A stretch of DNA of 64,000 nucleotides from the NCBI RefSeq assembly GCF_900188395.1, contig NZ_FZOB01000004.1, positions 62,001 through 126,000 of the forward strand, read 5' to 3'. Both the position numbers and the translations under genes were made by a program. Shown piece after piece: positions 20,067 through 63,907 of this stretch. Position 1 is the first letter of the stretch. Each line of letters starts with the position of its first letter. The notes below the pieces were generated by a model. The model was given only the letters and a program-made list of their open reading frames with translations. It ran no database searches and was not told the DNA's origin. This stretch comes from Desulfurobacterium atlanticum (GTDB lineage: Bacteria; Aquificota; Aquificia; Desulfurobacteriales; Desulfurobacteriaceae).

Positions 20067-20092
20067 CTTTATCCCCACTTAAGCATTAAAGA

Positions 20093-21657: not shown

Positions 21658-21659
21658 CT

Positions 21660-23132
21660 CTACACCTCCATCTCTTTCTTCCATGGTGCTTTCACATACT
21701 TCCAGGGAGCACCGTTAACAGCCATATCCATATCCCTCGCAAGCCTTAAAAATCCAAGAATTCCGTGGTAAGGTCCCGAGTAATCCCAAGAGTGCATCTG
21801 ACGGAACGGAATCCCCATCTTCTGGAACACATACTTTTCTTTTACACCAGAACCGATAAGGTCAGGTTTTAAAGCCTCAACAAATCTATCAAGCTCATAT
21901 TGGGTCACATCATCATAGATAAGAGCACCCTCTCCAAGTTTCGGATAGGTTTTCTCATAATCATCATCGTGAGCAAACTCATAACCTGTTCCGATAACAA
22001 CCATACCAAGGTCTTTTTCAAGAGCTTCGGCAACGTGCCTTGGACGAAGCCCTCCCACATAAAGCATCACTTTTTTTCCTTCAAGACGCGGTCTATACTC
22101 TGCTTTAACCTTTTCAACAAACGGAGTCCATTTTTCTATAAACTTTTCAACATTCTCCTTAATTTTGTCATCAAAGAAATTTGCTATATCTCTTAAACTC
22201 TCAAAAGTATCTGTCGCTCCTATAAAGTTTGATTCGTAATAGGGTATTCCGTACTTCTTCTCCATACTTTTTGCAAAATACTGGGTTGACCTTGCACAGT
22301 GAACAATAGTCAACTTGGCATACTTTGCCTTAGGCCAATCCCAAACATTTGGATCGGTAGGAAAACGGGCAACGACCCTGAGTCCTATAGCCTTAAATAT
22401 CTTTAAAACCTCCCAGCCATCACCACCGATGTTGTAATCACCTATATAGACAACATCGTAAGGACCCGGCTCCCAGTCAGGGTCTAAATCTTTTGGTTCA
22501 TATCTTTCAACTATCCAGTCCCTCCACATATCGTTTGCTATATGGTGACCGAGAGACTGAGATACTCCTCTGAATCCTTCACAGTTATAAGGAACTATCC
22601 ACTTCCCGGTCTCTTTCTCTTTTTTCCTTGCAACACTTCCTATATCATCACCGATAAGACCTACAGGACATTCTGAAAGAACACTTGCTCCCTGAGCAAG
22701 AGGAAACATCTCAAAAAGCTCATCAAGAGCTTTATCAAGTTTTTTATCCCCGCCGTAAACAACATCCCTCTCCTGATAGAATGTTGTGAAATGAAACGTT
22801 ACAAAGTTATTAAGTCCTCTTTTCCCTGTAGCGTAGTTCCTTCTGGTTGACCAGGAGTAGTGACCGCATCCAACAGGTCCGTGAGAAATAGGTATCATCC
22901 CTTTAATCTGACCTACAAGAACACCCTTACAACCTGCGTAAGTACATCCTCTTGAAGAGATAACACCTGGACGGCACTTTACATTTGATATAACTTTATT
23001 CTTACCTGACGGGTCGTTAACAGCTAAGTGCTTTGCTCTTTCTTTTCGTGCTTTTTCTGGATATGCACTTAAAGTATCTTCAATAAGCTTTGCGGCAAAG
23101 GTAGGGTCAAGAACCTGCCTCTTCTCCATCAT
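21660..23132 (-). CDS. nifD: Nitrogenase MoFe protein alpha chain
   Basis: A 490-residue NifD. P-cluster cysteines are in RGCTYAG, PVGCGHYSW and LSECPVGLIGDD. FeMo-co environment residues match Mo-nitrogenase: KGV (position of Av Val70), RRNY (Arg96), SQSLGHHIAND (Gln191/His195), VHCARS (cofactor-binding Cys275) and QMHSWDYSGPYHG (His442). GGLRPRH is also kept. This argues for a functional Mo enzyme rather than V/Fe-only or a NifD-like protein. Two consecutive ATGs (23132, 23129) follow AGGAGG; the second has the better spacing. A hairpin lies between it and nifH. Confidence 0.97.
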   Translation of the reverse strand: MMEKRQVLDPTFAAKLIEDTLSAYPEKARKERAKHLAVNDPSGKNKVISNVKCRPGVISSRGCTYAGCKGVLVGQIKGMIPISHGPVGCGHYSWSTRRNYATGKRGLNNFVTFHFTTFYQERDVVYGGDKKLDKALDELFEMFPLAQGASVLSECPVGLIGDDIGSVARKKEKETGKWIVPYNCEGFRGVSQSLGHHIANDMWRDWIVERYEPKDLDPDWEPGPYDVVYIGDYNIGGDGWEVLKIFKAIGLRVVARFPTDPNVWDWPKAKYAKLTIVHCARSTQYFAKSMEKKYGIPYYESNFIGATDTFESLRDIANFFDDKIKENVEKFIEKWTPFVEKVKAEYRPRLEGKKVMLYVGGLRPRHVAEALEKDLGMVVIGTGYEFAHDDDYEKTYPKLGEGALIYDDVTQYELDRFVEALKPDLIGSGVKEKYVFQKMGIPFRQMHSWDYSGPYHGILGFLRLARDMDMAVNGAPWKYVKAPWKKEMEV

Positions 23133-23154
23133 TTACCTCCTCATCTTTATCAAG

Positions 23155-23178
23155 GGGGGTAGCCCAAGGGCTACTCCC
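23155..23178. other. Intergenic hairpin between nifH and nifD
   Basis: A ten-pair stem (GGGGGTAGCC with GGCTACTCCC, one G-T pair) around a CAAG loop lies directly after the nifH stop. No U-run follows on the minus strand. Stem-loops here commonly raise nifH mRNA over nifDK by stabilising the 5' segment. Confidence 0.55.
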
Positions 23179-23181
23179 TGC

Positions 23182-24087
<906 letters not shown>

Positions 24088-46473: not shown

Positions 46474-49263
46474 ATGCCTGATGAAAAGAAAGATTACAAG
46501 GAAACTTTAAATCTTCCGAAAACATCGTTTCCTATGAGGGGAAATCTCCCTAAAAAAGAAACAGAAATTTTGAAATTTTGGAAAGATATAGGGATTTACG
46601 AGAAAGTGCTAAAAAAAAGAGAGGGCAACGAAAAGTATGTACTGCATGATGGTCCTCCATACGCAAACGGACACATCCACATCGGTCACGCCCTTAACAA
46701 AATTCTCAAAGACCTCATTGTTAAATCAAGAGCAATGGCAGGTTACTACACACCTTACGTCCCCGGATGGGATTGTCACGGTCTTCCAATAGAAAGAGCT
46801 GTTTTCCAGAAAATCAAAAAAAGAAAAGAGGAAGTTGACCCGGTAGAGATAAGAAAAAGGTGTAGAGAGTATGCTAAGCAGTGGATAAATACCCAGAGAG
46901 AGGAATTTATAAGGCTTGGAGTTTTAGGTGATTGGGAGAATCCTTACATAACAATGACACCACAGTATCAGGCGGACATATTAAGAGAACTTGCCAAATT
47001 TTATGGTAAAGACCTTGTTTACAGGGCGAAAAAGCCGGTTTACTGGTGTCCAAACTGCACCACTGCCCTTGCAGAAGCTGAGATAGAGTATAAAGATAAA
47101 ACTTCTACATCCATCTATGTAAAGTTCAAAATAGAAGATGAAAAATTTCCTGAAAACAGTTACTTTGTAATATGGACAACAACACCATGGACTCTGCCTG
47201 CAAACGTTGCAGTTGTTCTTCATCCTGACCTTGAATACCAGCTTCTAACAGACGGCACTGAAAACTATTTAATAACAACGAACCTTGTAGATAGCTTCAA
47301 AGAAAAAATTGGAAAAGAATTAAAATCCATTAAAACTTTCAAAGGAAGTGAACTTGAAGGTATAAGATACAGCCATCCTTTCATAGACAGAGAGGGTGTA
47401 AGTATTCTGGCAGACTTTGTTTCAGATGATACAGGAACCGGAATTGTTCACTCAGCTCCCGGACACGGTGAAGAGGACTACATAGTAAGCAGAAAATACA
47501 ATCTCCCTGTTCTTGCCCCTGTGGACGATTACGGCAGATTTACAAATGAAGCTCCAGAGTGGCTTCAGGGAATAAAGATATGGCAGGCAAATGAAATTAT
47601 AGTTAAAAGGTTGAAAGAAACCGGATACCTTCTTCACACAGAAGAGATAACTCATTCCTACCCACACTGCTGGAGATGTAAAAAACCGGTAATATTCAGG
47701 GCTACTCCCCAGTGGTTTATCGCACTTGACAAAGGAAATCCAACACTAAGAGAGATAGCTCTATCTGAAATCAAAAAGGTAAAATGGATCCCGGAATGGG
47801 GAGAGATAAGAATCAGCAATATGGTGGAACAAAGGCCTGACTGGTGTATTTCAAGACAGCGTATCTGGGGCGTGCCTATTGTTGCTTTCTACTGCGAAAA
47901 ATGTGGAAAGCTTATAGCGTCTCAAGAGATCGCTGAACATGTGGCGGATATATTTGAAAAAGAAAGTGCAGATTCATGGTACGAAAAACCTGCAAATGAG
48001 CTTCTGCCAGATGGATTTAAGTGTCCCGAATGTGGTGGAACAGAATTTAAAAAAGAGATGGATATCCTTGACGTGTGGTTTGATTCTGGAAGCTCTCATG
48101 CCGCTGTTCTTGAAAGGAGAAAAGAACTAAAGTGGCCTGCTGACATGTATCTTGAAGGTTCAGATCAGCACAGAGGATGGTTCCAGGCAAGTCTTCTTGA
48201 ATCATGCGGAACAAGAGGGAAAGCTCCGTATAGATCGGTCTTAACACACGGTTTCACCCTTGACCAGCAGGGAAGAAAAATGAGCAAGTCTCTCGGAAAC
48301 GTTATCTCACCTCAGGATATAATAAAGCAGTTCGGCGCTGATATTTTAAGGCTGTGGGTATCAAGTGAAAACTTCTCAGAAGACGTAAGAATTTCAAAAG
48401 ATATACTCAAGCAGATAGCTGACGTTTACAGAAAAATACGAAACACCATAAGGTTTATCCTTGGAAACCTTAACGACTTCAATCCTGAAACAGACACTGT
48501 TCCATTTAAAGAGATGGAAGAGATAGACAGATGGGCTCTTACAAGACTCTCACAGATCAAAAAGGAAATTTTAAAATTCTATGAAGAGTTTAAATACAAC
48601 AGAATTTATAGAGTTATTTACAACTACTGCGCCACAGAACTCAGTGCAACATACCTTGATATTTTGAAAGATACCCTATACTGCGAACTTCCAGATTCAA
48701 AGAAAAGAAGAAGTGCCCAGACAGCAATATATACGATATTAAGAGAGCTAACCAAACTCCTTGCCCCCATACTTTCCTTCACCATGGAGGAAGTTTACTC
48801 TCACATACCAGGAGATAAGGAGGAATCTGTATTCCTTGAAAACTTTGAGAGTGAAATACCAGAAGAAAAAGAACTCCTTCCTGTGTGGAAAAAACTTATA
48901 GATGTTAAAAAAGCTGTAAATAAAGCATGTGAAACTGCAAGAACAGAAAAACTTATAGGTCATTCCCTTGAAGCAGCAGTAAAAGTTTACGCAGACGGAG
49001 AAATTTTTGACCTGCTTAAAAAGTATGAAAGCCAGCTTCCATACATCTTTATAACTTCTAAAGCGGAAGTTTTAGCACTTAAAGAAGCTCCTGCTGAGGC
49101 TGTTTCAGATGAAGAGATAGAAAAACTTAAAGTTTTAGTTGAAAAAGCACCGGGTAAAAAGTGCGAAAGGTGCTGGATGTTCTCTGAAGACGTAGGTAAA
49201 GATTCAGAATACCCGGATGTATGTCCAAGATGTAAAGAGGTTCTGAAAAAACTGGGGGAGTAA
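46474..49263 (+). CDS. ileS: Isoleucyl-tRNA synthetase
   Basis: A 929-residue class I synthetase. HIGH is seen in NGHIHIGHALNKILKD (near 67) and KMSKS in GRKMSKSLGN (near 607). The editing domain (TGTGIVHSAPGHGEEDY) is intact. The C-terminus has zinc-binding CERCW and CPRC motifs, the bacterial IleS type 1 form. Length is normal. It is followed 35 bp on by radC. Confidence 0.97.
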   Translation: MPDEKKDYKETLNLPKTSFPMRGNLPKKETEILKFWKDIGIYEKVLKKREGNEKYVLHDGPPYANGHIHIGHALNKILKDLIVKSRAMAGYYTPYVPGWDCHGLPIERAVFQKIKKRKEEVDPVEIRKRCREYAKQWINTQREEFIRLGVLGDWENPYITMTPQYQADILRELAKFYGKDLVYRAKKPVYWCPNCTTALAEAEIEYKDKTSTSIYVKFKIEDEKFPENSYFVIWTTTPWTLPANVAVVLHPDLEYQLLTDGTENYLITTNLVDSFKEKIGKELKSIKTFKGSELEGIRYSHPFIDREGVSILADFVSDDTGTGIVHSAPGHGEEDYIVSRKYNLPVLAPVDDYGRFTNEAPEWLQGIKIWQANEIIVKRLKETGYLLHTEEITHSYPHCWRCKKPVIFRATPQWFIALDKGNPTLREIALSEIKKVKWIPEWGEIRISNMVEQRPDWCISRQRIWGVPIVAFYCEKCGKLIASQEIAEHVADIFEKESADSWYEKPANELLPDGFKCPECGGTEFKKEMDILDVWFDSGSSHAAVLERRKELKWPADMYLEGSDQHRGWFQASLLESCGTRGKAPYRSVLTHGFTLDQQGRKMSKSLGNVISPQDIIKQFGADILRLWVSSENFSEDVRISKDILKQIADVYRKIRNTIRFILGNLNDFNPETDTVPFKEMEEIDRWALTRLSQIKKEILKFYEEFKYNRIYRVIYNYCATELSATYLDILKDTLYCELPDSKKRRSAQTAIYTILRELTKLLAPILSFTMEEVYSHIPGDKEESVFLENFESEIPEEKELLPVWKKLIDVKKAVNKACETARTEKLIGHSLEAAVKVYADGEIFDLLKKYESQLPYIFITSKAEVLALKEAPAEAVSDEEIEKLKVLVEKAPGKKCERCWMFSEDVGKDSEYPDVCPRCKEVLKKLGE

Positions 49264-49297
49264 CATTCCCCCCTTTTAACCCTATAACGGAGAAAGT

Positions 49298-49972
49298 GTG
49301 AGTTTTTACACGATAAAGGAGCTACCTGAATCTGACAGACCAAGAGAGAAGCTTTTAAAGTTAGGTGCTGAAAACCTCACAGATACAGAACTTATAGCAA
49401 TACTTCTTAGAACCGGAACAAAAGGAAAGAATGTTTTAGACCTTGCAAGAGAACTGCTGAAACACTTTAGCGGTATAAACGGCCTTTCTGAAGCTTCCAT
49501 AGCCGAACTTTCAAAGTTTAAAGGACTTGGAAAAACTAAAGCGATAACACTAAAAGCAGCCATTGAAACAGGAAAAAGAGCAGGGATAGTTGCCAGGAAA
49601 CCAAAAATCTCATCCCCTGAACAAGCTTACAACATTTTAAGAAACTTCTCTTTTAACAAAGTAGAAATCTTTGGCATAATAACATTAAACACAAAAGGAG
49701 AAGTTATAAATATCCACCAGATTACAAAAGGGGGACTTAACTTTACTCACATCACACCCAAAGAAGTATTTCACCCGGCCGTGAAGGATTTATCAAACAC
49801 GATAATTCTCTTTCACAACCACCCTTCAGGTTCTCCAGAACCTTCAAGTGAAGACATAAAAATCACCCATGAACTTATAAAAGCAGGTAATCTCCTTGAT
49901 ATAGAAATTGTTGACCACATAATCCTTGGAAACAACATCTTTTTCAGCATGAAAAAAGAAGGTCTGATTTAG
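49298..49972 (+). CDS. radC: RadC/JAB1-MPN-domain protein
   Basis: A 224-residue RadC family protein starting at GTG. An N-terminal HhH region (GINGLSEASIAELSKFKGLG) is followed by the JAB domain with the metal motif HNHPSGSPEPSSEDI (H-x-H...S...D, near 168). The family was long linked to DNA repair, but that function is unproven. It overlaps the convergent arsC-type gene by 4 bp. Confidence 0.93.
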   Translation: MSFYTIKELPESDRPREKLLKLGAENLTDTELIAILLRTGTKGKNVLDLARELLKHFSGINGLSEASIAELSKFKGLGKTKAITLKAAIETGKRAGIVARKPKISSPEQAYNILRNFSFNKVEIFGIITLNTKGEVINIHQITKGGLNFTHITPKEVFHPAVKDLSNTIILFHNHPSGSPEPSSEDIKITHELIKAGNLLDIEIVDHIILGNNIFFSMKKEGLI

Positions 49973-50379: not shown

Positions 50380-51053
50380 AACAACTCCTCTCTCCCAGCA
50401 ACATCTATATTTTTATAACCATACCTTTTGAAAAGCTTTTTGACATACATGGTGGCAAATCTACCATCAAGCCCCGTACAGAAAACAAAAACCTTTCCAC
50501 TCCCACACACTTCCGTAATAGAGTTAAGAAATATAAGTTTTCTTCCCTTCTTTGTCCTTTTATAAAGGGGATCTCTCCACTGACGTACCATATTGGCTTT
50601 ACACTCATGCAGTTCAAGGCCATCAGGACCTGAAAAAGCAACATCTATCTCTTTAGGTGAAATCTCTTTTCTCCCCTTATAAAGTCTACATTGATTTATT
50701 CTTCGGTATCTTCCTTTAATTTTTAAAGGACCTCTCTTTGAAAGTAGAATTTCAAGAAAATCTCCCCTCCTTGTATCCGTGCTTCTTAAAAAGAATTTCT
50801 TCAAAATTTGCAAAAGTTCTTCAGCCTCCGAAAAAGAGATAACCCCTATATCATAACATTCTCTGACAGTATGAAAGATCCTCTCTGCTATAACTCTCTG
50901 CGGATCTGTAGGTCTGAACAGATTTATAAGTTCAAAAACATAACTTTTCAATTCCGGGCGGGAATCAAGAAAAGAAAAAAGCTCTTCCAGTTCACGACAG
51001 GTAATAGCACTTAAAGTTTTCCCTTTCCTGCAGGAACACTTACCATTCCTCAT
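50376..51053 (-). CDS. PD-(D/E)XK-like nuclease-fold protein of unknown role
   Basis: A 225-residue protein. The N-terminus has a Cys-rich MRNGKCSCRKG. The middle holds KEIDVAFSGPDGLELHECKAN, given as region ~136-157, which reads as D-x(n)-E-x-K of the restriction-endonuclease-like fold, followed by a basic segment. It overlaps both neighbours by 4 bp: arsC downstream and the sirtuin upstream. I do not recognise a named family. A DNA-processing or CARF-less effector function is possible; catalytic assignment is inferred. Confidence 0.5.
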   Translation of the reverse strand: MRNGKCSCRKGKTLSAITCRELEELFSFLDSRPELKSYVFELINLFRPTDPQRVIAERIFHTVRECYDIGVISFSEAEELLQILKKFFLRSTDTRRGDFLEILLSKRGPLKIKGRYRRINQCRLYKGRKEISPKEIDVAFSGPDGLELHECKANMVRQWRDPLYKRTKKGRKLIFLNSITEVCGSGKVFVFCTGLDGRFATMYVKKLFKRYGYKNIDVAGREELL

Positions 51054-51868
51054 CCTTTCTTAACCTCGTTTAAAATAAGAGAAAGCACTTTACCGGCGGA
51101 ATCTCTAAAAACAGCATCACAAATACTACTCAAAGATGTCTCTTCCAGATTGATCTCAACAAGAAACGCCCCGCCTCGCTTTGCATAAATCGGCAGTAAA
51201 GCCGCCGGTTGAACAACAGCAGATGTGCCGATTGAAAAGAAAAACTCACAAGCGCTGGAAATTTCAAACGCCTTTTCAACCGCCTCTTCCGGTAAAATTT
51301 CTCCAAACCATACCACTCCAGGACCAACTATTTCACCACAAACTTTACACACAGGAAGGACATCTTTAGTAAAGTTTTTTAAAACAGTTTCATTAAACTC
51401 ATCGTCAGACATTCCTTTTAACACTTCTCTCCCTGAAAAAGGAAAAATAGATGAAAACTCCTTTTCTGAATACTCTTTACCACAAAACCTGCATTTCCCT
51501 CTGAAAATGTTTCCATGAAGCTCTATAACCCTTTTTGATCCAGCTCTAAAATGAAGTCCATCAACATTTTGAGTAATAACCCACACATCCCTCAACAGTC
51601 TTTCAAACTCAGAAATAGCCAAATGTCCACTGTTTGGCTCTGCCTTAGCTATAAGCCTCATTCTAAAAAGATACCACTGCCACACCCTTACAGGATTTTC
51701 AATAAAGGCATCCAGTGTTGCAAGCTCTGTCGGAGAATACCTGTTCCACAATCCATCTTTTCCCCTGAAAGTTGGTATTCCACTTTCAGCACTTATCCCC
51801 GCCCCTGTAAAGAATACAACTCTATTACTCTGAATTAACTTCTCCTTTAAAATCTTTAAATTCTCCAT
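51050..51868 (-). CDS. cobB: Sirtuin NAD-dependent protein deacylase (CobB/SIRT5-like)
   Basis: A 272-residue Sir2-fold enzyme. GAGISAESGIPTFRG binds NAD, TQNVDGLH and ELHGN (catalytic His) follow, and the zinc cysteines are in CRFCG and CKVCG. WYLFRMRL has Tyr and Arg three residues apart, as in the Y-x-x-R pair that lets CobB/SIRT5 remove succinyl or malonyl groups. ATG at 51868 is chosen over a TTG six codons earlier. It overlaps the membrane-protein gene by 44 bp upstream. Confidence 0.88.
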   Translation of the reverse strand: MENLKILKEKLIQSNRVVFFTGAGISAESGIPTFRGKDGLWNRYSPTELATLDAFIENPVRVWQWYLFRMRLIAKAEPNSGHLAISEFERLLRDVWVITQNVDGLHFRAGSKRVIELHGNIFRGKCRFCGKEYSEKEFSSIFPFSGREVLKGMSDDEFNETVLKNFTKDVLPVCKVCGEIVGPGVVWFGEILPEEAVEKAFEISSACEFFFSIGTSAVVQPAALLPIYAKRGGAFLVEINLEETSLSSICDAVFRDSAGKVLSLILNEVKKG

Positions 51869-52388
51869 TCTTAACCCTGCCAACAAATTTGCCGGTTTTC
51901 ATTATTTTAAAACTATCCCCTTTCCTCTTTAAAACCGCCTCAAACATAGAAGCATTATTTATCAGATATCTTACTACCACTTTATCATCATAAACTTTTT
52001 CTTCCACAACCCTAACGTTGTTAGAAAGAGTAGAAGCATCAAAGGTTACAAGAAAACGCCCCGCAATAAATGCAAAAACAAACCTTAAAATAAAAGCTGT
52101 AAAAAATACAAAAACAGCAAAAATCAAAAGTGTTTTAAAACTACCTAAAACCTTTTCTAAAACAAATGTAGCAACTATTCCACGAAAAGAAAAACTAAAA
52201 GCAAGAACAATTAACGCAGCAACAACTGCAATATTTGAAAAAGGTATCTTATCAAGTATAGTTCCCATATCCCAGCACCTTACAGCAGACCAGAATTCCC
52301 CTTTCCTGAGAAGCTCAATATAATATTTGAAAAACTCTGCCCCATCACCAGAGAACAAAAAGCTTTCAATTTCCAGAACCCCCACCAT
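51825..52388 (-). CDS. Hypothetical two-helix membrane protein
   Basis: A 187-residue protein with two adjacent hydrophobic helices (about 52-70 and 84-112) and a C-terminal soluble part (VRVVEEKVYDDKVVVRYLI ... MFEAVLKRKGDSFKIMKTG) with a beta-rich look. That part may be an NTF2-like or ABC transporter-accessory (MlaC/Tol2-type) fold, but I cannot name it. It is the first gene of the run ending at arsC and lies just left of the tRNA-Leu fragment. Confidence 0.45.
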   Translation of the reverse strand: MVGVLEIESFLFSGDGAEFFKYYIELLRKGEFWSAVRCWDMGTILDKIPFSNIAVVAALIVLAFSFSFRGIVATFVLEKVLGSFKTLLIFAVFVFFTAFILRFVFAFIAGRFLVTFDASTLSNNVRVVEEKVYDDKVVVRYLINNASMFEAVLKRKGDSFKIMKTGKFVGRVKNGEFKDFKGEVNSE

Positions 52389-52446: not shown

Positions 52447-52501
52447 TGGTGCCCGGGGCGGGACTTGAACCCGCACGGTGTTGCCACCACAGGATCCTGA
52501 G
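52447..52501 (-). other. 3' fragment of tRNA-Leu(CAG): attachment site at the element border
   Basis: Read on the minus strand, the fragment starts CTCAGGA (anticodon loop with CAG), then the 3' anticodon stem TCCTG, a long variable arm GGTG-GCAA-CACC, the T arm GCGGG-TTCAAGT-CCCGC, and acceptor CCCGGGC-A-CCA. The 5' acceptor strand, D arm and 5' anticodon stem are absent; AT-rich sequence precedes it. Class II variable arm plus anticodon identify tRNA-Leu. A fragment starting exactly at the anticodon loop is what tyrosine-recombinase integration leaves. The complete gene should lie at the other end of the element. Confidence 0.85.
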
Positions 52502-52537
52502 TTTTATGTAAAGTTTTGTTTTTCAAGTTCTTTATTG

Positions 52538-52789
52538 TTAACTGTTCGCAGAATGGTCGCATAGTTGTTTCTCCAGCCATTTTTCAAGATAATCTGCAGG
52601 AATATCAAAACCGTGTTTCCGTAAACTGCTTATTAGCTCTCTGAGATATGCTACATCGTTGCTATTTAGATTGTCTTTTTCAAGTAAAATTCTTCTGAAC
52701 TTTCTTCCGTCTTCACCGGTGAAGAGGAATATTTTTTTTCTTCTCAGGTCAAATTCTTCAAAAACCTCAACAACTTCTTTGGCTTTCAT
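52538..52789 (-). CDS. Hypothetical small protein next to the attachment site
   Basis: An 83-residue charged helical protein (FEEFDLRRKKIFLFTGEDG; LRELISSLRKHGFDIPADYL). It overlaps the upstream 173-residue gene by 4 bp. Small genes beside att often encode excisionase-like factors; no HTH is clear, so this is only a possibility. Confidence 0.45.
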   Translation of the reverse strand: MKAKEVVEVFEEFDLRRKKIFLFTGEDGRKFRRILLEKDNLNSNDVAYLRELISSLRKHGFDIPADYLEKWLEKQLCDHSANS

Positions 52790-53307
52790 TTTTTGTTCCT
52801 CAACTCGTCGAGCGGATTTACATCTCCTTTCGTTCTTTCTATGTTAAGATTCATCCATTCAAGATATTTACCCATTATTTTTTCAGGAATTTCATAAGCT
52901 TTATTTCCTTTTTTTAGCTGCTCTTTACAGTATTTGTATATGGAATCAGCTATCAGGTAAACTTTTGGAGAACTTGAAAGAAAAGGATCTCTTTTAAATC
53001 TTATTACAGCTTCAGTTTCCACCGGAAGGACTTCATTAACGTTGAGTTTCTCTTTTTTTATTCTTTTATTTATATAATCTGCGAGTTCATAGAAGTCAAA
53101 CGGGAAGGGGCCTTTCCTTTTAAGCATTTCTTCAATTTTCTCTGCAAGATGCGGTTTGTGTTCTTTATACCAGTCAAGGCCACCTGTCATCAAAAATTTA
53201 TACTGGTCTCTTGAGAGCCAGCTTCCGGGTGCTTCTACCATTGCAAGAAGTTCTATGGATTTTGCTACTTTGGTAGTTATTCCGGGTGGATATTTTTTCC
53301 TGGTCAT
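52786..53307 (-). CDS. Hypothetical protein, first of a two-gene unit
   Basis: A 173-residue soluble protein (TRKKYPPGITTKVAKSIELL at the start; RDQYKFLMTGGLDWYKEHKP; GPFPFDFYELADYINKRIKK). No known motif. It is divergent from traH with a 99-bp gap and coupled to the small downstream gene. Confidence 0.5.
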   Translation of the reverse strand: MTRKKYPPGITTKVAKSIELLAMVEAPGSWLSRDQYKFLMTGGLDWYKEHKPHLAEKIEEMLKRKGPFPFDFYELADYINKRIKKEKLNVNEVLPVETEAVIRFKRDPFLSSSPKVYLIADSIYKYCKEQLKKGNKAYEIPEKIMGKYLEWMNLNIERTKGDVNPLDELRNKK

Positions 53308-53406: not shown

Positions 53407-54846
53407 ATGAAAAGGTTAATTTCTGCTTCCTTGTCTATTCTGCTCTTTACGTGTTCTGCAAAAGCAGGCATTAAGGATTATCTTGACAAATTTGTTGTGG
53501 AAGTACCTGCAGATACTGCCGGTGTTTATGAAAGTCAGCAAAGAAGGTATTACGTAGGTGGACGATTTACCTTGAAATCTCCGAAGATGGTTGTTAATCC
53601 CTTTTATGTCGAACCTCCGTCTATAAATACTGGCTGTAACGGTATAGATATCGCTTTCGGGTCTTTTTCCTATCTTGCTGATGATAAATTCTGGGAAGAA
53701 TTTGCGAAGTCTATTTTCAATCCTTCAACAATAGCTGCAGTGGCTTATGACATTGCAATGGGAGCCCTTTGTGAAAAGTGTTCTTCAACACTGAAAAAAT
53801 TAACAAGTCTTGCCAATCAGATTAACTCAATGAGTTTTGACAGTTGTAAAATAGCGACGGCGATAAGTGGTAATTTAAAAGAAAGGCTTGCAGGTACAAA
53901 GATAGCAAGTAACTTGAATGGCAAAACATCTACCTGGCTTTCAGGTGCTGAAACCTTTCTTGATGATATGACAGATCTCATAAGTGATTTTAACACCAAT
54001 GTTGATTGTGCCGGTTTCGCCTGTGAAGTGGCAAATAAAATAACAGATACAGACAGCTTCCTTGAAGACCTTTTAAAAGACACGGATATGTATGATCCTG
54101 ATCTTGTTAATCTTTTAAGGGCTTACATAGGAGATTTCAAAATAGTTTCTAAAAAGAAAAGGCAGGTATTCCCTGTTGAAAATGCTACTGCTGAAAGAGA
54201 TTCTGTTAATGGTGCAAAAGAACTTGTGGCAATACTTACAGGTTATGAAGACGGAGAGTGCAAAAGCAGTGTCACTGAGGAAGGGGTTGATAAAAACGGG
54301 AATACTGTAAATGTGGCAAATTATGTCCCTGCGTGTAAAGAGGCAGAGGATGCTATTACTGACATATTTAATGCAATAGATTACAGATACACTCCTTCAG
54401 CAACCACAACAAACTTTATAAGAAAGTTTAACGTTCCGGTGTATTCTCTTTTAAATACTCTCTCTCTTGCTCCTGCAAGTGTCAGAGAAGCAATAAAATC
54501 AAAGCTTGTCAGGTATTTTGCATATGAATACGCCTATGAGATTCTTCAGCATACCTTTTCAGGTATCGGGCAAAAGTTGACTTTTGTGAAATATGCGATG
54601 GATCCTGACCTGAGGGAAACTAAATATGGAGGAGCTCTTGAAAGAAATATAGAAATGTTACGGAACAATATGGCAAAAATAATGAAAGAGATGAACAGGC
54701 AGTATGCAGAGGTTCAACAGGATTTTTACAGGACTGTTCAGCAGCAAAAAGTGTATGAGGATCTACAGAAACAGGTTATGGCTTCAATGAGCCATTCTCC
54801 GATTGCTGGGGCTTATCTTGCTTCTTTAGGGCTGAATAAACTTTAA
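53407..54846 (+). CDS. traH: TraH-like F-type conjugation pilus assembly protein
   Basis: A 479-residue exported protein (signal about 1-19, ending SAKAG). The TraH signature is seen: GGRFTLKSPKMVVNPF, then INTGCNGIDIAFGSFSYLADDKFW (region ~65-95), with the later paired cysteines ALCEKCSSTL and SFDSCKIAT. TraH is a periplasmic factor of F-type T4SS required for pilus assembly and depends on disulfides. C-terminal coiled coil at ~415-455. It precedes traG by 15 bp, as in the F plasmid order. Confidence 0.85.
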   Translation: MKRLISASLSILLFTCSAKAGIKDYLDKFVVEVPADTAGVYESQQRRYYVGGRFTLKSPKMVVNPFYVEPPSINTGCNGIDIAFGSFSYLADDKFWEEFAKSIFNPSTIAAVAYDIAMGALCEKCSSTLKKLTSLANQINSMSFDSCKIATAISGNLKERLAGTKIASNLNGKTSTWLSGAETFLDDMTDLISDFNTNVDCAGFACEVANKITDTDSFLEDLLKDTDMYDPDLVNLLRAYIGDFKIVSKKKRQVFPVENATAERDSVNGAKELVAILTGYEDGECKSSVTEEGVDKNGNTVNVANYVPACKEAEDAITDIFNAIDYRYTPSATTTNFIRKFNVPVYSLLNTLSLAPASVREAIKSKLVRYFAYEYAYEILQHTFSGIGQKLTFVKYAMDPDLRETKYGGALERNIEMLRNNMAKIMKEMNRQYAEVQQDFYRTVQQQKVYEDLQKQVMASMSHSPIAGAYLASLGLNKL

Positions 54847-54861
54847 TTTGGAGAGGGGATT

Positions 54862-57800
54862 TTGAAAAAGAAGATTTTTATTTTTCTTTGCATATTGCTT
54901 TTTCCTTCTGTTCTTTACGCAGCAACACCTGCTGACACCATATATACATGGGGATATGGCGATATTCTGGCAAAGGCTCTTCACGGTGTGGCCGATGTTG
55001 TAGGTTCCGGCAGCTTTGAAACCATATTTAAAATTTTTCTTGCCCTTTCTTTATTCTCTTCTGTTATCAGTCTAATATTTTCTATAGGTAGAAGAGTTGA
55101 TTATTTTTCAGTTTTTAAAATGTGGATTTTCGGTTCAATGGTTTTTACCCTTCTTTTTACTGTAAAAATTCCTGTGGCTGTGGAAGACGTTTCAGGGTTC
55201 AGTCAGGTAGTAAACAATGTGCCCTGGTTAATAGGGAAACCTCTTGCCTTTTTTTCACAGATTGAAAAAAGGATGGGAGAAGTTGTTGAACAGGCGTTTT
55301 TTCCTACAACTTCTTACATAGGATATAATCAACTTGGTCCAATTACACCCCTTTCGATGGTTGCCGGGGAAGTAGAAGCTACCACACCTGTTGATCCCTA
55401 TCTATACAAGAGTATCAATAACTATGTAAAAGATTGTGTGATTCCCGATATACTTGATGGTTCTAAAAGTCTTATTACCCTTCAATCTTCACATACTCTC
55501 TGGACGGACCTCGGAGATACAAATCCTGCACGGTTTACTGTTGTCTATGATTCTACAGATCCCGATGGTACGGTTTATGATTGTCCATCCGCTTACGGAG
55601 TGCTTGACGGTCGAGTGAGAATTTATGCAGCCGGTGATGGTCTTAATGTTCTGTCAAACAGTCTTGGCTTTGTTTCTTCTTCAATTATTGCAAGTTCTCT
55701 CGGGCTTGCTAACGATTATTTTATGTCTTACTCAGCAAGTGCTCAAGATGCCATTTTGCAGGGTATAGCAATAAATCAGATGAAGTCGGGATATAGAGAG
55801 TGGGCGATAGCTGCCGGAGTAAATCCTGATGCTATTTCTTACTCTCTTTCTACGGCCACGCAGCAGCTGAAACAGACATCTCTTGCGAAGGCAATTACAG
55901 GAGCAAAATACCTGCCGATGGCAAAAGGGGTGGGAACTGCCTTTTTTGTGGCGATGCTTCCTTTTATGATTGTTATTTCTCTCTTTTCAGGTCCGAGGGC
56001 ATTTAAGGTTGTTCTAACAGTATATGTGTGGTTTTTACTGTGGCATGTTGGGGAAGTGATTCTAAACGCCTTTCTGCTAAACTCTGCCCAGAGCCAGCTT
56101 TCGGCAATAGCTGCTGGCGGTCCCACTCTAATGAGTGCCGCAAATGTTGCTGCAGCTTCTCAGGATAAGATTATTGCCTTCTCATCTTTCTACTGGTTAA
56201 TACCGACTATAAGTTTCGGGCTTGCTTCAGGTGCTGCTTATGCTTTTTCTTCTGTTGCTTCCGGAATTATGGGAGCCGCTTCAGGTGCTGCAGCTGCAGG
56301 AGCTGCAGAAGCTGCTAAAGGTTCTGCAAGTTTTGGAAACCTCGCTTATGGAAACGTTTCCTCAAACAATATTGACTGGTTACACAGAGAGAATATGGGA
56401 ACCGAGACAAGAATGGATCTGCTAAATTATTCCATGAACGGTAGAAGATCTATCAGTACCTCTTTCGCAAACAGAATGAACTCAGGAGGGGTATATAAAG
56501 AGCAAATAGCCAATCAGTCCGTTTCTGCATTTGGCCTTCCTGGTGTTTCAGGTAAAGATAAGTTTATAGATGGAGAAGCTGTTTTTGGTGATAAAGGAGT
56601 GACCATACACGGGAAAACCGCAGGTGGATGGAATATTGATGGCCTTATTAACAAAAATGGCCAATTTACAGGAGTAATGAAAACAGGAAACAAAGAATTA
56701 CAATATGACCATGGAGTTCCCATAAAAGAGAAGATTTTCGGGGAGGATGGTTCTGTAACCGAACGTATAGGTGATGCTGTTTCATGGAAGAAAGCCGGTG
56801 GTGGATTTGAAGGTGTCAATGGAACCATAACCGGAGTGTCTCTTTCATCAGCTGCCATTAAAAGTGCTTTAACGGCAAAAGAGCAGCTTTCAGAGCGTGC
56901 CTCGGATATGTGGAAAAAAGGCCAGCAACTTCTTAACAAATATACTGAAAAGTTCGGAATTGACAGAAGTTTTTCTGATATTACAAGGGCCGGTAAAACG
57001 GTGGAGAACGGAAGTGACTACTCCGAAGAAGTAAAGCAGATGGCAAAGAGAGAGGAATCTTCAGCCGTTGAACATGCTCTTGAGGATCTGGTGAAGTCAG
57101 GGGAGATTAAGAAAAATGAAGTTCAAGGAATGTTAAAAGCAGGGGCTAACTTAGTAGGTATCGGGGCTAATGGTGTTATTCTCCGCTCCAAAGATAACCG
57201 TTATGAAATTGCCCTGACAGGTAAAACAGCTCAGAAATTTAAGGAAGCTTTTGTTAAGAACTACATATCTTCTCAAAGCGGTAGAAAGGTTCTTAAAGAG
57301 GCCGAAAGAGGTTCTAAAGATGAAGAATTCAAAGAAAGATTATCAAGTGCTGTATCTTATGGGGAAGAAGCTTCAAAATATCTTGCTAAAGCTCATGAAT
57401 ATAAAGAAGAAGCTTCAAAAATGAATGAAAAATCTCTTTCTGCAGGCATTAACGTTCTTCCGGAGGCGATAAACGAATATCTTGATAGTAAAGGGATAAC
57501 CGATAAAAATGCAAGATACAGAAAAACTGCAGAAATAGTAGATAAAATGAATAAACTGTTTGCCACCGACCCACAAAAAGGTGTTCAGTATTTGAATCGC
57601 ATTTCTGGAGGGGATTATAAAACCCTTGAAGATATTTCAAGGATGAAGGTTGATATTAAAAAGCCGGAAGATTTTAGTGTCAAGAAACAGATGGGAAAAG
57701 GTCAAAGCTTGAAGGATGAGGTTTTAGGTGGCATAAACAGCGGGGGAACCAGTGTTAATGGGAAATATTCAGGCAATCCGGGAAATAATGCTTCAACCGG

Positions 57801-58263
57801 AGTTTCGGTGCTCCATAATGCGGTTGACCCGCAGGTTTGGAAAGGGCATGTAACAGGTAAAGAAAATATAGAAATGGTTCAAAATCTGTTGAGAAATTCT
57901 TTTGCCAGAAGGGGACTTACCTACGATAAAGACAAGATATATGTAGAGGCCTGGAATAACGATGCAAGAAGAATTTTTCCGGCTGCAAGAAAAGCCATAG
58001 ACAACAAGATGATACATACTGTCCTTGAGAAAATGCAGGAATCTCCGGATAAGAAAGTGCAAAATATTGATGAAAATTTCATGAAAAGCATGAAGTCCGG
58101 AGAGGTGGTTGAAACCGAAGGTGGACTAAAGGTTGCGAAACTTACCCCCGGAACTTATTTAACATATAGTAAAGATACTGGTTATTCAGTACTTGAGTTT
58201 AATGATGAAAAAGCTGAATCTTTAAGAGTTAAAAATTTGAATCCCAACTGGAAGTTAGAGTGA
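54862..58263 (+). CDS. traG: TraG-like mating-pair stabilisation protein (F-type T4SS)
   Basis: An 1133-residue protein starting at TTG (GGAGAGGGGA upstream). The N-terminus has a signal peptide, then YTWGYGDILAKALHGVADVVG, the TraG_N pattern, and several helices (about 50-110, 355-400, 440-480) including a Gly/Ala-rich segment. The long soluble C-terminus is hydrophilic and coiled. In F, the N-terminal part aids pilus assembly and the C-terminus acts in entry exclusion; whether the C-terminus here does so is unknown. Confidence 0.8.
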   Translation: MKKKIFIFLCILLFPSVLYAATPADTIYTWGYGDILAKALHGVADVVGSGSFETIFKIFLALSLFSSVISLIFSIGRRVDYFSVFKMWIFGSMVFTLLFTVKIPVAVEDVSGFSQVVNNVPWLIGKPLAFFSQIEKRMGEVVEQAFFPTTSYIGYNQLGPITPLSMVAGEVEATTPVDPYLYKSINNYVKDCVIPDILDGSKSLITLQSSHTLWTDLGDTNPARFTVVYDSTDPDGTVYDCPSAYGVLDGRVRIYAAGDGLNVLSNSLGFVSSSIIASSLGLANDYFMSYSASAQDAILQGIAINQMKSGYREWAIAAGVNPDAISYSLSTATQQLKQTSLAKAITGAKYLPMAKGVGTAFFVAMLPFMIVISLFSGPRAFKVVLTVYVWFLLWHVGEVILNAFLLNSAQSQLSAIAAGGPTLMSAANVAAASQDKIIAFSSFYWLIPTISFGLASGAAYAFSSVASGIMGAASGAAAAGAAEAAKGSASFGNLAYGNVSSNNIDWLHRENMGTETRMDLLNYSMNGRRSISTSFANRMNSGGVYKEQIANQSVSAFGLPGVSGKDKFIDGEAVFGDKGVTIHGKTAGGWNIDGLINKNGQFTGVMKTGNKELQYDHGVPIKEKIFGEDGSVTERIGDAVSWKKAGGGFEGVNGTITGVSLSSAAIKSALTAKEQLSERASDMWKKGQQLLNKYTEKFGIDRSFSDITRAGKTVENGSDYSEEVKQMAKREESSAVEHALEDLVKSGEIKKNEVQGMLKAGANLVGIGANGVILRSKDNRYEIALTGKTAQKFKEAFVKNYISSQSGRKVLKEAERGSKDEEFKERLSSAVSYGEEASKYLAKAHEYKEEASKMNEKSLSAGINVLPEAINEYLDSKGITDKNARYRKTAEIVDKMNKLFATDPQKGVQYLNRISGGDYKTLEDISRMKVDIKKPEDFSVKKQMGKGQSLKDEVLGGINSGGTSVNGKYSGNPGNNASTGVSVLHNAVDPQVWKGHVTGKENIEMVQNLLRNSFARRGLTYDKDKIYVEAWNNDARRIFPAARKAIDNKMIHTVLEKMQESPDKKVQNIDENFMKSMKSGEVVETEGGLKVAKLTPGTYLTYSKDTGYSVLEFNDEKAESLRVKNLNPNWKLE

Positions 58264-58289: not shown

Positions 58290-58652
58290 TTACCTTAACG
58301 ATTTGAATCTTGCTTTTGCACGGAGCCGAAATTTAAGAAGAAAGAAACTCTTTGGAAATTTAACAATGATACAAGGTTTAATCTTATATTTTATTTTCTG
58401 TTCCCCTCTGTTTTTATTTATCGCTTTTCCCATTTCCGAAAAGAATTCAGGGGGTAGTGTAAAACTTGAAGGCCAACCTCCAGCAGTACCGTCTATTAAT
58501 ACAAGTTTATCTTTATTTCTTGCGGGATATTTACTGAATTTTCTTTTTAAAAAGTTTTCCTCCTGCTTTTCCACAAGATGCTTAGGTAGTCCAGTAAACT
58601 TGCCTATTTCTTCTTTTTCGGATAGATTTTTGAAGAAATCACCTATTCCCAT
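58290..58652 (-). CDS. Hypothetical basic protein
   Basis: A 120-residue basic protein (GIGDFFKNLSEKEEIGKFTG at the start; LPKHLVEKQEENFLKRKF; VLIDGTAGGWPSSFTLPPEF). The ATG at 58652 is favoured by AGAGG six bases upstream. It overlaps the small upstream gene by 14 bp. No family recognised. Confidence 0.45.
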   Translation of the reverse strand: MGIGDFFKNLSEKEEIGKFTGLPKHLVEKQEENFLKRKFSKYPARNKDKLVLIDGTAGGWPSSFTLPPEFFSEMGKAINKNRGEQKIKYKIKPCIIVKFPKSFFLLKFRLRAKARFKSLR

Positions 58653-58806
58653 TTTCATCCTCTGATAGGGTTTCAAAATAAGCTATAATTTCCAGCATCC
58701 ATTCTATCATTTTTTCCTTTTCGGATTCTGAAAACTCTGTTGATGAAATTGAATCGCAAAGTCTTTCAAGTTGTTCGTGTAGCCAGTGCAATGGTTCTTT
58801 TTTCAT
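58639..58806 (-). CDS. Hypothetical small acidic protein divergent from the repressor
   Basis: A 55-residue acidic helical protein (KKEPLHWLHEQLERLCDSIS). GAGGAGGAAAGC before ATG at 58806 is a strong ribosome site. As the first gene divergent from an S24 repressor it may be the repressed, lytic/transfer-promoting gene, but no motif is seen. Confidence 0.5.
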   Translation of the reverse strand: MKKEPLHWLHEQLERLCDSISSTEFSESEKEKMIEWMLEIIAYFETLSEDENGNR

Positions 58807-58914: not shown

Positions 58915-58929
58915 AGGGAGATGTTTTTT

Positions 58930-59601
58930 ATGTGTAATAAGCAAAACGATTTTTCTTTTAGAATAAAGAGGCTAAGAGAAACTTTAAAGATGACTCAAAA
59001 AGAATTTGCAGAAAAAATTGGACGTTCACATCGTTCAGTTCAAGAATGGGAAAGTGGAAGAGTAATTCCTCCAGAAAATATTTTAAAATTTATAGAAACA
59101 GTCTTTTCCGTTAACCCAGAATGGCTTCGTCACGGTAAGGGAAAGATGTTTTTGAAAAAGAAACCTGAATCCAATCTAAAGTTTCTTGGTAATGTTGAAT
59201 CGGATTTTGTTCTTGTTCCTGTTCCAGTTATATCCGGAGTGAGAGCGGGAAGAGGACTTTACCCAGAGATAAATAATCCGGAAGAAGTGGAGATGTTTTA
59301 TGTACCAACAAAAAGAGCAGAACATCGGATGTTTTTTTTCAAAGTTGAAGGAGATTCTATGAATCCAAGATTAAAAGATGGAGATTGGGTTCTGGCAGAT
59401 CTTGACTCTTCTGTCTATTCGGGAGATCTTGCGGTTGTAGAACTAACTAACGGTGAATTGATGGTGAAAAAGTTCCGTGAAAAAGGAGATATTGTAATTC
59501 TTGAAAATTACAACACAGATTATGAACCGATTGTTGTTAAAGAATCAGATATTAAGAATCTTGCAAAAGTTATTTCTATACTCCCGAAAGGAGAATCCTG
59601 A
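58930..59601 (+). CDS. CI/LexA-like repressor: HTH plus S24 peptidase
   Basis: A 223-residue protein. The HTH (FRIKRLRETLKMTQKEFAEK, RSHRSVQEWESGR; about 8-45) is followed by an S24 domain with catalytic Ser in EGDSMNPRLKDGDW (near 137) and catalytic Lys in LMVKKF (near 178). Such repressors cleave themselves on RecA activation and keep phage or conjugative elements silent. The second ATG (58930) is used since AGGGAG abuts the first. It is convergent with the Rep-like gene. Confidence 0.85.
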   Translation: MCNKQNDFSFRIKRLRETLKMTQKEFAEKIGRSHRSVQEWESGRVIPPENILKFIETVFSVNPEWLRHGKGKMFLKKKPESNLKFLGNVESDFVLVPVPVISGVRAGRGLYPEINNPEEVEMFYVPTKRAEHRMFFFKVEGDSMNPRLKDGDWVLADLDSSVYSGDLAVVELTNGELMVKKFREKGDIVILENYNTDYEPIVVKESDIKNLAKVISILPKGES

Positions 59602-59603
59602 TT

Positions 59604-60194
59604 TCAAAACTTCCAAAGAAGCTTCGGGAATTTAATTCTTCCTGCACTATAAAAAGATATATAATCTTTATAGTAAAGCTCTTCAAGAGCCTTTCTTACT
59701 GTTTTTGAAGATAAATTCATGAATTCTGCGAGCTCTTTAGTTGTTTTAATTATGATTTCATCTCCTGCGGGTTTTAACCATACCAATGAACATAAAGTAA
59801 TCTTTGCAAGAGGAGAAATGTAATAATCAAAAATATCTTTAGGAATCCATATAAATGCCAGCAGAGATGGAGAAAAATCTTTTATAAGGTAGCAGTTATA
59901 TCGGTGGTGTTTTTTTATGGAAATAATTCCTTTTTGTTCAAGAATATCTATAGAAGCATGAACTGTTTTAAGGGTATATCCGGTAATTTTTGAAAGAGTC
60001 CTCATTGAAGGGAAAGCTTCTCCTTGATGATTCATATAACTATATAAACACATAAGTGTGTATCTTGCCGATACGGGTATTTTAGATTTGAATGGTTCAG
60101 GGAAACATGGAAAATAGTTTTCCTTGAAGGTCTGAAAGAAGTCATAAAAGAGTTTTTTCTTGTCATCGTTATACGCCATTACCTTTCTACGCAC
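59604..60194 (-). CDS. Two-winged-helix protein, candidate plasmid replication initiator
   Basis: A 196-residue protein with two winged-helix segments: AFPSMRTLSKITGYTLKTVHA (region about 64-84) and TTKELAEFMNLSSKTVRKAL (about 158-178). The GTG at 60194 is chosen for GGAG at correct spacing. Tandem winged helices occur in RepA/RepE initiators and in helix-turn-helix_36 regulators. Repeats and an inverted repeat lie upstream, so a replication or control role is reasonable. No clear Rep_3 signature is visible. Confidence 0.55.
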   Translation of the reverse strand: MRRKVMAYNDDKKKLFYDFFQTFKENYFPCFPEPFKSKIPVSARYTLMCLYSYMNHQGEAFPSMRTLSKITGYTLKTVHASIDILEQKGIISIKKHHRYNCYLIKDFSPSLLAFIWIPKDIFDYYISPLAKITLCSLVWLKPAGDEIIIKTTKELAEFMNLSSKTVRKALEELYYKDYISFYSAGRIKFPKLLWKF

Positions 60195-60459
60195 ATCTAT
60201 CTCCACTGTCCAGGTTATTGCGTATAGTATATTCCATACTGGAAAAAACTACAACAATGGAAAGGGAATTTTTTGGATTCCCCTTATACTTAAGTACTAC
60301 TTTTAGGCATTCTATAAGTAATTACTTAAATATCCTTTTGAAGGAACTTTTTATAACTATTTAGGAAATAAATAAAACAAATTAAAATGGAAAAATTAAA
60401 ACGTCAATTGAAAAAACTTTAACAATAAGAATGGAACTTTTTTTCCGCTCCTCCCCCGG

Positions 60460-60738: not shown

Positions 60739-61911
60739 TCACAAAAGGAACGACAAACTTTGATATTTTTCAAAACCATCAATTAACAATTTTTTATTTG
60801 CCGGAAATTCGTTAAACAGCTCAAGTTGTTTTTTATTTAAATCCACTTTATACTTAACCTCAATGAGCGTTTTATCTTCAGTAAAAAAGTCAATTTCTAT
60901 ACCGTCCCGTAAAACATAACATGGCTTTCTATTTTTTATCTTTAAAAAAACCAGGTTTTCAAATACCGCTCCCAGATCCCTGAATCCTGTAATAACATTT
61001 CTTATACCAACATCACCAGCATATATCTTTTTAGGAGATTTCAGCCTTTCATTGAGTTTTCCGCATCTTTCTATTGCATAAATAATATACGTATCCAGAA
61101 AATACTCAAAAAATCTCTTCGCTGTATCGGGACTTATCCCTAATACTTTTGATATTTTATTCAAGCTCAGCTGCTTTCCAGCTCTTTCCATAAGCAGAAG
61201 AAAAAACTCTTTTACAGCCGTTTTCTCTTTTATGTTGTGCATGGCTATTATGTCTTTATAAAGAATATCATCAATAAGATGTTTTATGTACTCCAGGTCT
61301 TCCGTTAAAACATATTCCGGAATTCCTCCGATTTTCATGTAATCTTCAAAATAACCTTCTAATAGATGTTTATCTGCTTTTTTAATTTTTATTCCTTTAA
61401 AGTTCAAAAACTCATCAAAATCAAGGGGTAAAACTTCTGTAATCTTTTCTCTTCCAGTTAAAAAGGCTTTTTTATCTTTCAAAACCGAAGCTGAAGATGA
61501 AGAAACAAATAGTTTGGCATTGTAAAGGTCATATAAGTTTTTTAGTTGAAGTGCAAAATCCTTTTTATATGTAACTTCATCTAAAAACAGATAGATTTTT
61601 TCCGAAAAAGACAACTTCTGTAATTTTAAGTATTCTTCCACAATATCAAGAATACTCAGATTTTCCAGCTTATAAAAATCCAGAGATATAAAAAATATAC
61701 GATTCGGTTGAATGTTTTTCTCGTGTATCAGTTTATCAATAATCAGTTTGATTATTGAAGTTTTACCAATACGGCGAAGTCCTGTAATAATCTCAATGGA
61801 GGGATTATCAATAGATGACACCAAAGGTACTGTATATTTAGGCCTATCAATAAAGTTTATTTTATACTCTTCTTCCCACCACGGATTGAATCTATAAAAA
61901 ATCTCTTCCAT
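60739..61911 (-). CDS. AAA-type ATPase with C-terminal DUF4143 domain
   Basis: A 390-residue protein: an N-terminal AAA_14 P-loop (ITGLRRIGKTSIIK, near 40-55), Walker B YLFLDEV (near 108), an arginine-rich SSSSASVLKDK sensor segment, a winged-helix part (LNKISKVLGISPDTAKRFFEY, region 245-266) and a DUF4143 C-terminus with EIDFFTEDKTLIEVKYK, a nuclease-like D-x(n)-E-x-K pattern. The family is widespread in archaea and thermophiles and spreads horizontally, with no fixed role. It lies between repeat arrays and has a palindrome upstream. Confidence 0.8.
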   Translation of the reverse strand: MEEIFYRFNPWWEEEYKINFIDRPKYTVPLVSSIDNPSIEIITGLRRIGKTSIIKLIIDKLIHEKNIQPNRIFFISLDFYKLENLSILDIVEEYLKLQKLSFSEKIYLFLDEVTYKKDFALQLKNLYDLYNAKLFVSSSSASVLKDKKAFLTGREKITEVLPLDFDEFLNFKGIKIKKADKHLLEGYFEDYMKIGGIPEYVLTEDLEYIKHLIDDILYKDIIAMHNIKEKTAVKEFFLLLMERAGKQLSLNKISKVLGISPDTAKRFFEYFLDTYIIYAIERCGKLNERLKSPKKIYAGDVGIRNVITGFRDLGAVFENLVFLKIKNRKPCYVLRDGIEIDFFTEDKTLIEVKYKVDLNKKQLELFNEFPANKKLLIDGFEKYQSLSFLL

Positions 61912-62533: not shown

Positions 62534-63430
62534 ATGATAATCGGACTTGATGTAGGATTCGGAAGAACAAAAGTATGTACGGAAGAAAAATGCTTTTCAT
62601 TTCCGTCCTGGGTAGCAAGACACACCCCATCAGCTGACGAAGAAGTGGAAACTGTTTCCCTTTTCGGTGAAGAATACGTAGTGGGAGAGGATGCAAAATA
62701 TGAGAGCAGTCTTATAGAGATATCGGATATAAAAGACTATCTGAAATATCTGCCGCTCTTTCTCAAGTATGTTTCACAGAATCTTTCAGAAACTCCGGAA
62801 ATTATAATTACAGGCCTTCCACCGAAATATAGAAACTATGCGGAAAAAGTGGAGAAGATAATAGAAGATACGGAAGCGGCCGGCAAAGTCATACCACAAG
62901 GGATGGGAATATTCTTTGACGTGAAAGGACAGGTTTCACAAAGCGAAGATATACTGATAATAGATATAGGCTACAACACACTTGATTACATTATGCTTGT
63001 AAAAGACGAAAGAAAGCAAATAGGCTTCAGAAAAAGAAAATCAAACACAATAGACAACTTTGGAATAAACAGAGCGGTTCTTGAGTTCAGGAACAATCTG
63101 GAAGACAGCTATATAAAAAATCTCTCACTTACAAGATTAAACGAAATTTTTATAAACGGTAAAGGAAGAATACTTAACGAGACGGTGGATTTTTCCAAAC
63201 AGAGAGAAAGGGCTGTTAATGCGTATGCTGAAATGGTGATAGGAAGATTAAAGACAGAAGTTGGAGATTTTATAGCCAACGTTGAAACGATAGTTATAGC
63301 AGGAGGAGGAGCAAGATTTATAAAGGGAGAGATGATAGGAAGGCCTGATGCTTTCATTCCCGAAAAACCGGAATTTTCGCAGGCAAGGGGATATTTCGTA
63401 TTTGGGAAAACTCTCGGGGAAGAAAAATGA
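62534..63430 (+). CDS. parM: ParM/StbA-like plasmid-segregation actin
   Basis: A 298-residue actin-like ATPase. GLDVGFGRTKV is the phosphate-1 loop; ITGLPPKY and ILIIDIGYNTLDY (phosphate-2, near 143) and IVIAGGGARFI (adenosine, near 258) complete the actin fold. Its size and order match ParM/Alp/archaeal Ta0583-type actins, which push sister plasmids apart by filament growth. GTAGGAGGTAAG precedes the ATG. It overlaps the zinc-ribbon gene by 4 bp and heads the operon. Confidence 0.85.
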   Translation: MIIGLDVGFGRTKVCTEEKCFSFPSWVARHTPSADEEVETVSLFGEEYVVGEDAKYESSLIEISDIKDYLKYLPLFLKYVSQNLSETPEIIITGLPPKYRNYAEKVEKIIEDTEAAGKVIPQGMGIFFDVKGQVSQSEDILIIDIGYNTLDYIMLVKDERKQIGFRKRKSNTIDNFGINRAVLEFRNNLEDSYIKNLSLTRLNEIFINGKGRILNETVDFSKQRERAVNAYAEMVIGRLKTEVGDFIANVETIVIAGGGARFIKGEMIGRPDAFIPEKPEFSQARGYFVFGKTLGEEK

Positions 63431-63633
63431 TAGAAATTCATGTAGTGTGTGACAGGTGTGGGGAGCGTGAAGTTGTGAAAGTATCCGGGACAAAAGTCAT
63501 AGCCGCTCACCCTTTTGACATACGGCCTGACAGCTGGAAACTCTTACATAAAAACGGAAAATTGCTTTTTTTGTGTGAAAACTGTTGTCTGGAGGATACA
63601 GGTGAAGAAAAAACTGATGATAAGTCTGGATAA
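63427..63633 (+). CDS. Small zinc-ribbon protein between parM and parR
   Basis: A 68-residue protein with CDRCG near the start and CENC near residue 50, a likely zinc ribbon. It overlaps parM by 4 bp and parR by 32 bp, so all three are translated together. No similar protein is standard in parMRC. Its function is unknown; it may modulate filament or centromere binding. Confidence 0.55.
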   Translation: MIEIHVVCDRCGEREVVKVSGTKVIAAHPFDIRPDSWKLLHKNGKLLFLCENCCLEDTGEEKTDDKSG

Positions 63634-63907
63634 AGAAATTCATCAAAAACTGATCTCTGCCGCTCCTCCTTATTTTCGTTCTCTTTTTATAGAAGTTGTT
63701 CTGGAGGAATTTTTTAACAGACACTCTCCAGAAGAGATAAAAGAGAAAGTTTTTAAGGATTTTGACAGAAAAGCTGTAAGAGAGCGGTTAATAAACTTGT
63801 TTAATTGCAATTTTAATGAAAATTTAAATAAAATTGATAGAAATTCCGGAGAAGAATTTAAAAAATCAGCTCCGGAAATTGAAAAAGAAATAGATGAAAT
63901 GTGGTAG
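63602..63907 (+). CDS. parR: ParR-like ribbon-helix-helix DNA-binding protein
   Basis: A 101-residue protein starting at GTG (GGAGGATACA upstream). The N-terminal strand KKKLMISLDKEIHQKLI and helices PYFRSLFIEVVLEEFF (about 1-38) give a ribbon-helix-helix fold; the charged C-terminal half would bind ParM. It follows parM as ParR does and should bind the upstream repeats as centromere and autorepress the operon. Sequence similarity to ParR families is low, so the call is by fold and context. Confidence 0.65.
   Translation: MKKKLMISLDKEIHQKLISAAPPYFRSLFIEVVLEEFFNRHSPEEIKEKVFKDFDRKAVRERLINLFNCNFNENLNKIDRNSGEEFKKSAPEIEKEIDEMW

Follow-up and report, generated by a model that had tools for sequence, protein, structure and literature searches.

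The window, the whole 64,000-nucleotide stretch of DNA analysed here, carries on its minus strand, at positions 52447–52502, the displaced 3′ half of a tRNA-Leu(CAG) gene, the attachment site that bounds an integrated element on one side. The explanation that we favour, at a probability of about 0.9, is that an ICE with F-type transfer genes integrated into tRNA-Leu(CAG) and was then reduced to a remnant by IS-linked decay. A restored tRNA gene at one border of an island and a displaced fragment at the other are a standard signature of integration, and sites centred on the anticodon are common: Islander counts 3760 islands that have a 3′ fragment and 2083 at anticodon-centred sites, a crossover in the anticodon loop being its subsite A (PMC4383910, citing Williams 2002). 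Integration into a tRNA gene is here, in a bacterium of deep-sea vents, a clear but ordinary case of this well-known process. As in Islander subsite A islands, an intact tRNA gene and a displaced 3′ fragment starting from the anticodon loop bound the element; unlike in those islands, the two lie on separate contigs, owing to an IS, and the integrase seems to have been lost.

The displaced tRNA half and its chromosomal site

ARAGORN called no tRNA across the window. The fragment, 56 nt long (ACTCAGGATCCTGTGGTGGCAACACCGTGCGGGTTCAAGTCCCGCCCCGGGCACCA on the minus strand), keeps the T arm, the variable arm and the acceptor 3′ strand with CCA, and the 5′ half of tRNA-Leu(CAG) is absent beside it. 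It is 96% identical to positions 32–87 of an intact tRNA-Leu(CAG) gene of the same genome (C16:31538–31624), a comparison which confirms the initial annotation of a 3′ half with these arms and no 5′ stem. That annotation placed the start correctly at 52447 and the end one base short, at 52501; it also took the fragment to begin exactly at the anticodon loop, which is right to within one base, as homology begins at A32, the final stem base on the 5′ side of the anticodon arm, one base before the loop. The crossover is thus at the anticodon-loop subsite. The match is too good for chance, because, with up to three mismatches allowed, the number of hits expected from shuffles for a 22-nt part of the fragment was 0.00.

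The genes to the left of the fragment are chromosomal, as the initial annotation had proposed. They encode IleS and RadC (46474–49972, plus strand), syntenic in G001 and G003, a Sir2-like protein (51050–51886, minus strand), found near tRNA-Leu(CAG) in many genomes of the family, and a 187-aa membrane protein (51825–52388, minus strand), whose gene adjoins tRNA-Leu(CAG) in G001 and G003. A nitrogenase cluster (16662–24075), with NifH- and NifD/K-like proteins named by eye from the translations, also lies on this side. In both G001 and G003, which belong to the same genus, the site is empty: a single intact tRNA-Leu(CAG) gene joins one flank with MBL-fold and ffh genes, the same genes that stand upstream of the C16 tRNA here, to another with the genes for the 187-aa protein, Sir2 and a 225-aa protein, radC and ileS, which are found here to the left of the fragment (for the G003 flank no sir2 match was recorded). 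From this synteny, C16 and C4, the contig of the window, were therefore adjacent before entry into the tRNA gene and, as the empty site joins both flanks, the fragment is therefore the attachment site at one end of the integrated element. The two ends of the island, a restored tRNA gene at one and the fragment at the other, sit on two contigs and are linked by this synteny. In another genome, G002 (C7:62268–63673), tRNA-Leu(CAG) and the gene for the 187-aa protein are separated by ~600 bp, compared with ~70 bp in G001 and G003, and no tRNA fragment was found in that interval.

The fragment and the intact C16 copy differ at positions 51 and 70. If the 5′ half of the C16 gene is joined to the displaced 3′ half, the product differs from the G001/G002 sequence only at position 70, a change private to the displaced copy; the present C16 gene also differs from that sequence once, at position 51, where the displaced half has the base of the genus and the rebuilt gene another. 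The pattern is what one would expect if the displaced half were the original chromosomal one, a polarity that rests on the single base at position 51.

The element and a colinear relative

From position 52503 the element extends rightward. At its end is the gene of an 83-aa protein (52538–52789, minus strand), which has no Pfam match and shares 66% identity with its counterpart at that end of an element in G001; next is a 173-aa protein (52786–53307, minus strand), 83% identical in G001's element and found within the family in this genome and G001 only, plus one marginal match. They are followed by the F-type conjugation protein TraH (53407–54846, plus strand; PF06122, E=5e-45; 61% identical to G001) and the F-type mating-pair stabilisation protein TraG (54862–58263, plus strand; PF07916, E=2.1e-57; 53% identical), then by a small ORF (58290–58676, minus strand), which shares a conserved stretch with three ORFs lying in tandem in G001's element. 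Further right are a LexA/CI-like repressor with HTH and S24 peptidase parts (58921–59601, plus strand; 61% identical to G001), a winged-helix/DnaD-N-like protein (59604–60206, minus strand; 48%), an AAA_14/DUF4143 ATPase that is cargo (60739–61911, minus strand), a ParM-like actin for partition (62534–63430, plus strand; 72%) and, downstream of it, a 130-aa protein (63515–63907, plus strand; 40%). TraH, TraG and the ParM-like protein bear out the initial annotation, which had placed conjugation and partition genes on this side. Past the window, as far as C4:142264, are genes for an exonuclease, a Toprim primase-like protein, a tyrosine recombinase, HipA and another ATPase, two IS200/605-like copies, named by eye, and a protein which by eye resembles a replication initiator and has no family match. 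GC content does not set the element apart (36.5–37.1%, against 37.5% for the chromosome).

The relative in G001 is a colinear ~60.6-kb element (C1:696615–757216), bounded by an intact tRNA-Leu(CAA) gene (C1:696528–696614) and its displaced 3′ half (C1:757217–757274). Both elements have the genes for the 83-aa and 173-aa proteins, TraH, TraG, the LexA-like and winged-helix proteins, ParM, a 227-aa and a 489-aa protein in the same order, at 40–83% identity. The right-end gene order, the subsite and the arm geometry described below are shared; the G001 element differs in its host gene, its size and in having kept its integrase and most tra genes. The tyrosine integrase gene (C1:696741–697796) adjoins the intact tRNA-Leu(CAA), and TraN, TraU, TraC, TrbI and TraD are also encoded. 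One ICE family thus occupies a single subsite in two distinct tRNA-Leu genes.

Two further features of the G001 element were observed. Its TraD-like coupling protein (L134:2691–5102, minus strand) carries an HD domain towards its C terminus (Pfam HD, 7e-11). Among the proteins of the element that were scanned, none was recognised as a relaxase, and an HD-type relaxase fusion in this protein is worth a look. In addition, at C1:757217–757410 a repeat runs ~135 bp past the displaced half and includes a copy of the tRNA-proximal end with arm repeats, as if it were the remnant of a second, tandem element.

Probable decay of the element and contig joins

The initial annotation had expected an intact second copy of the tRNA gene on the same strand to the right of the window, with an integrase next to it. 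The copy exists, but on another contig, C16; the cognate integrase was not found in this genome, where the closest match to the G001 integrase is 31% identical, and none was found directly inside the fragment. A repeat-collapsed or missed contig could hold it. TraU is likewise absent from this assembly, and of the mating-pair apparatus and coupling protein that make up an F-type ICE, this copy was found to have only TraH and TraG, in comparison with the TraN, TraU, TraC, TrbI and TraD of the G001 relative. The element in this genome is probably a decayed ICE, which we file as a remnant because TraU and the full mating-pair apparatus are absent and because no cognate integrase, such as the one present in G001, was found in the genome. 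A PCR for the circular form, which had been suggested as a check, would therefore probably be negative.

The intact tRNA gene is on a separate contig owing to an assembly break caused by an IS: in this assembly of 1.74 Mb and 23 contigs, C16 ends 173 bases past the gene, inside a multicopy IS which is found at 16 contig ends. Since C16 and C4 are unjoined, the exact size of the element and its tRNA-proximal end are not visible. IS copies with 13–15-bp target duplications lie behind most contig breaks, and as most copies are flanked by matching duplications, contigs can be paired through them. Unmatched flanks are C7R, C22L and C16R on the 3′ side of the IS and C22R, C20L and C4R on the 5′ side, C7R and C20L being alike, by eye, at 13 of 15 bases. 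A direct C16–IS–C4 join was rejected as the target-duplication flanks differ (TTTAAAGTGGTGCC and GATTCATCAAGAA), which calls for one or more additional joins or deletions. C19 was rejected as the intervening piece, since its genes are chromosomal and its two ends find their partners in C5 and C17. C22 shares with G001's element a pair of genes, PAP2 and DUF1173-like, whose order is conserved; the proteins are 39–41% identical to those of G001, compared with 40–83% for the other element proteins. The simplest arrangement would be C16–IS–C22–IS–C4, with sequence lost between IS copies. Among the remaining contigs, the C15R and C14R ends have CRISPR-like repeats (GTTTTAAGCGTACCTCTAAGGAATTGAAAC), C21 and C23 read as N in the parts inspected, and C21, at 5386 bases, has the length of the phiX174 sequencing control and may be a contaminant.

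Arm-like repeats, the integrase and its targets

Close to the fragment, at 52543–52561 on the minus strand, is a repeat pair resembling arm-type integrase sites, TGCGACCA-N3-TGCGAACA, 11 bp apart and 48 bp from an ACTC core. This is the sole match to the strict pattern in the 64 kb, with 0.00 expected from shuffles. In this genome (G000) and in G001, G009, G010 and G014, a pair of repeats (TGCGANCA or TGCACNCA) spaced by 11 bp precedes the displaced half, the second repeat lying exactly 48 bp from the core ACTC in all five. From their position and regularity we regard these repeats as putative integrase arm sites. Relatives of the G001 integrase (45–50% identity) adjoin the fragments in G009 and G010, both in tRNA-Leu(CAA), and in G014, whose fragment was read as tRNA-Thr(CGT). 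Mainly because the window element shares this geometry we assign it to the same integrase clade, and the integrase that acted here most likely belonged to the clade of the G001 tRNA-Leu(CAA) element. Another element, in G017 (C8:94828–142362), is phage-like by eye, ~47 kb long and inserted in tRNA-Leu(CAG), with its own integrase adjoining the displaced half; that integrase falls in a separate subclade, and the arm pattern was not found beside its fragment.

An element that is still intact and mobile could have as its own integrase the tyrosine recombinase encoded at C4:134573–135544. This protein sits in the element, matches Phage_integrase above the cut-off and is accompanied by primase-, ParM- and possibly Rep-like genes. 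However, its gene is 20 kb from the fragment and is missing from the colinear element of G001, and the protein, the only tyrosine recombinase found in the element, falls on a very long branch that lies outside the clade associated with tRNA genes. Its relatives, on the 22-kb contig C7 of G006 and on a Nautiliaceae contig, better fit a plasmid resolvase or inserted plasmid genes, and with TraU also missing we judge an intact element unlikely. (The G006 contig has a 95-bp terminal overlap and is probably a circular plasmid.) The plasmid-type maintenance genes would also suit a plasmid that carried a tRNA-Leu 3′ half and joined the chromosome by homologous recombination, with no integrase. Yet in every element homology starts from the anticodon loop, which together with the fixed 48-bp geometry fits site-specific recombination, and in G001 an integrase is found at the site, making this route very improbable.

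Even less weight falls on the border being that of a prophage like the element of G017, which has the same target gene and subsite: the window element has TraH, TraG and ParM and no recognised phage structural gene, and the two share only a weak repressor match. A chance tRNA-like sequence, or a duplicated or degenerate tRNA gene unrelated to integration, has solely the incompleteness of the fragment in its favour and is refuted by the empty-site synteny and the 56-nt match, leaving it a negligible probability. The initial reading of the fragment as a scar of tyrosine-recombinase integration is thus supported by the existence of an intact copy elsewhere, by the unoccupied site in G001 and G003 and by the fuller relative at the same subsite of another tRNA-Leu gene.

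Integration of an F-type ICE followed by decay would have proceeded through a tyrosine-recombinase crossover in the anticodon loop of tRNA-Leu(CAG), by which the original chromosomal 3′ half was pushed aside to what is now 52447–52502 and a replacement 3′ half, brought by the element, rebuilt the functional gene that is now on C16. IS copies most likely then removed the part next to the tRNA gene, and with it the integrase and most tra genes, leaving about 28 kb on C4, and probably C22, as a presumably immobile remnant.

More broadly, we lean towards one clade of tyrosine integrases in Desulfurobacteriaceae having been repeatedly retargeted among the Leu-CAA, Leu-CAG and Thr-CGT anticodon loops, with the arm geometry (an 11-bp repeat spacing and 48 bp to the core) kept fixed; the window element would then be the Leu-CAG member of an ICE family found at Leu-CAA in a sister species. 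The finding gives the precise border and the likely origin of a mobile element from a deep-branching lineage that has been little studied. Its greater interest lies in the switch of target tRNA gene under constant arm geometry, as one ICE family with two tRNA-Leu targets and a fixed geometry forms a natural series in which one may ask how integrases switch their tRNA target.
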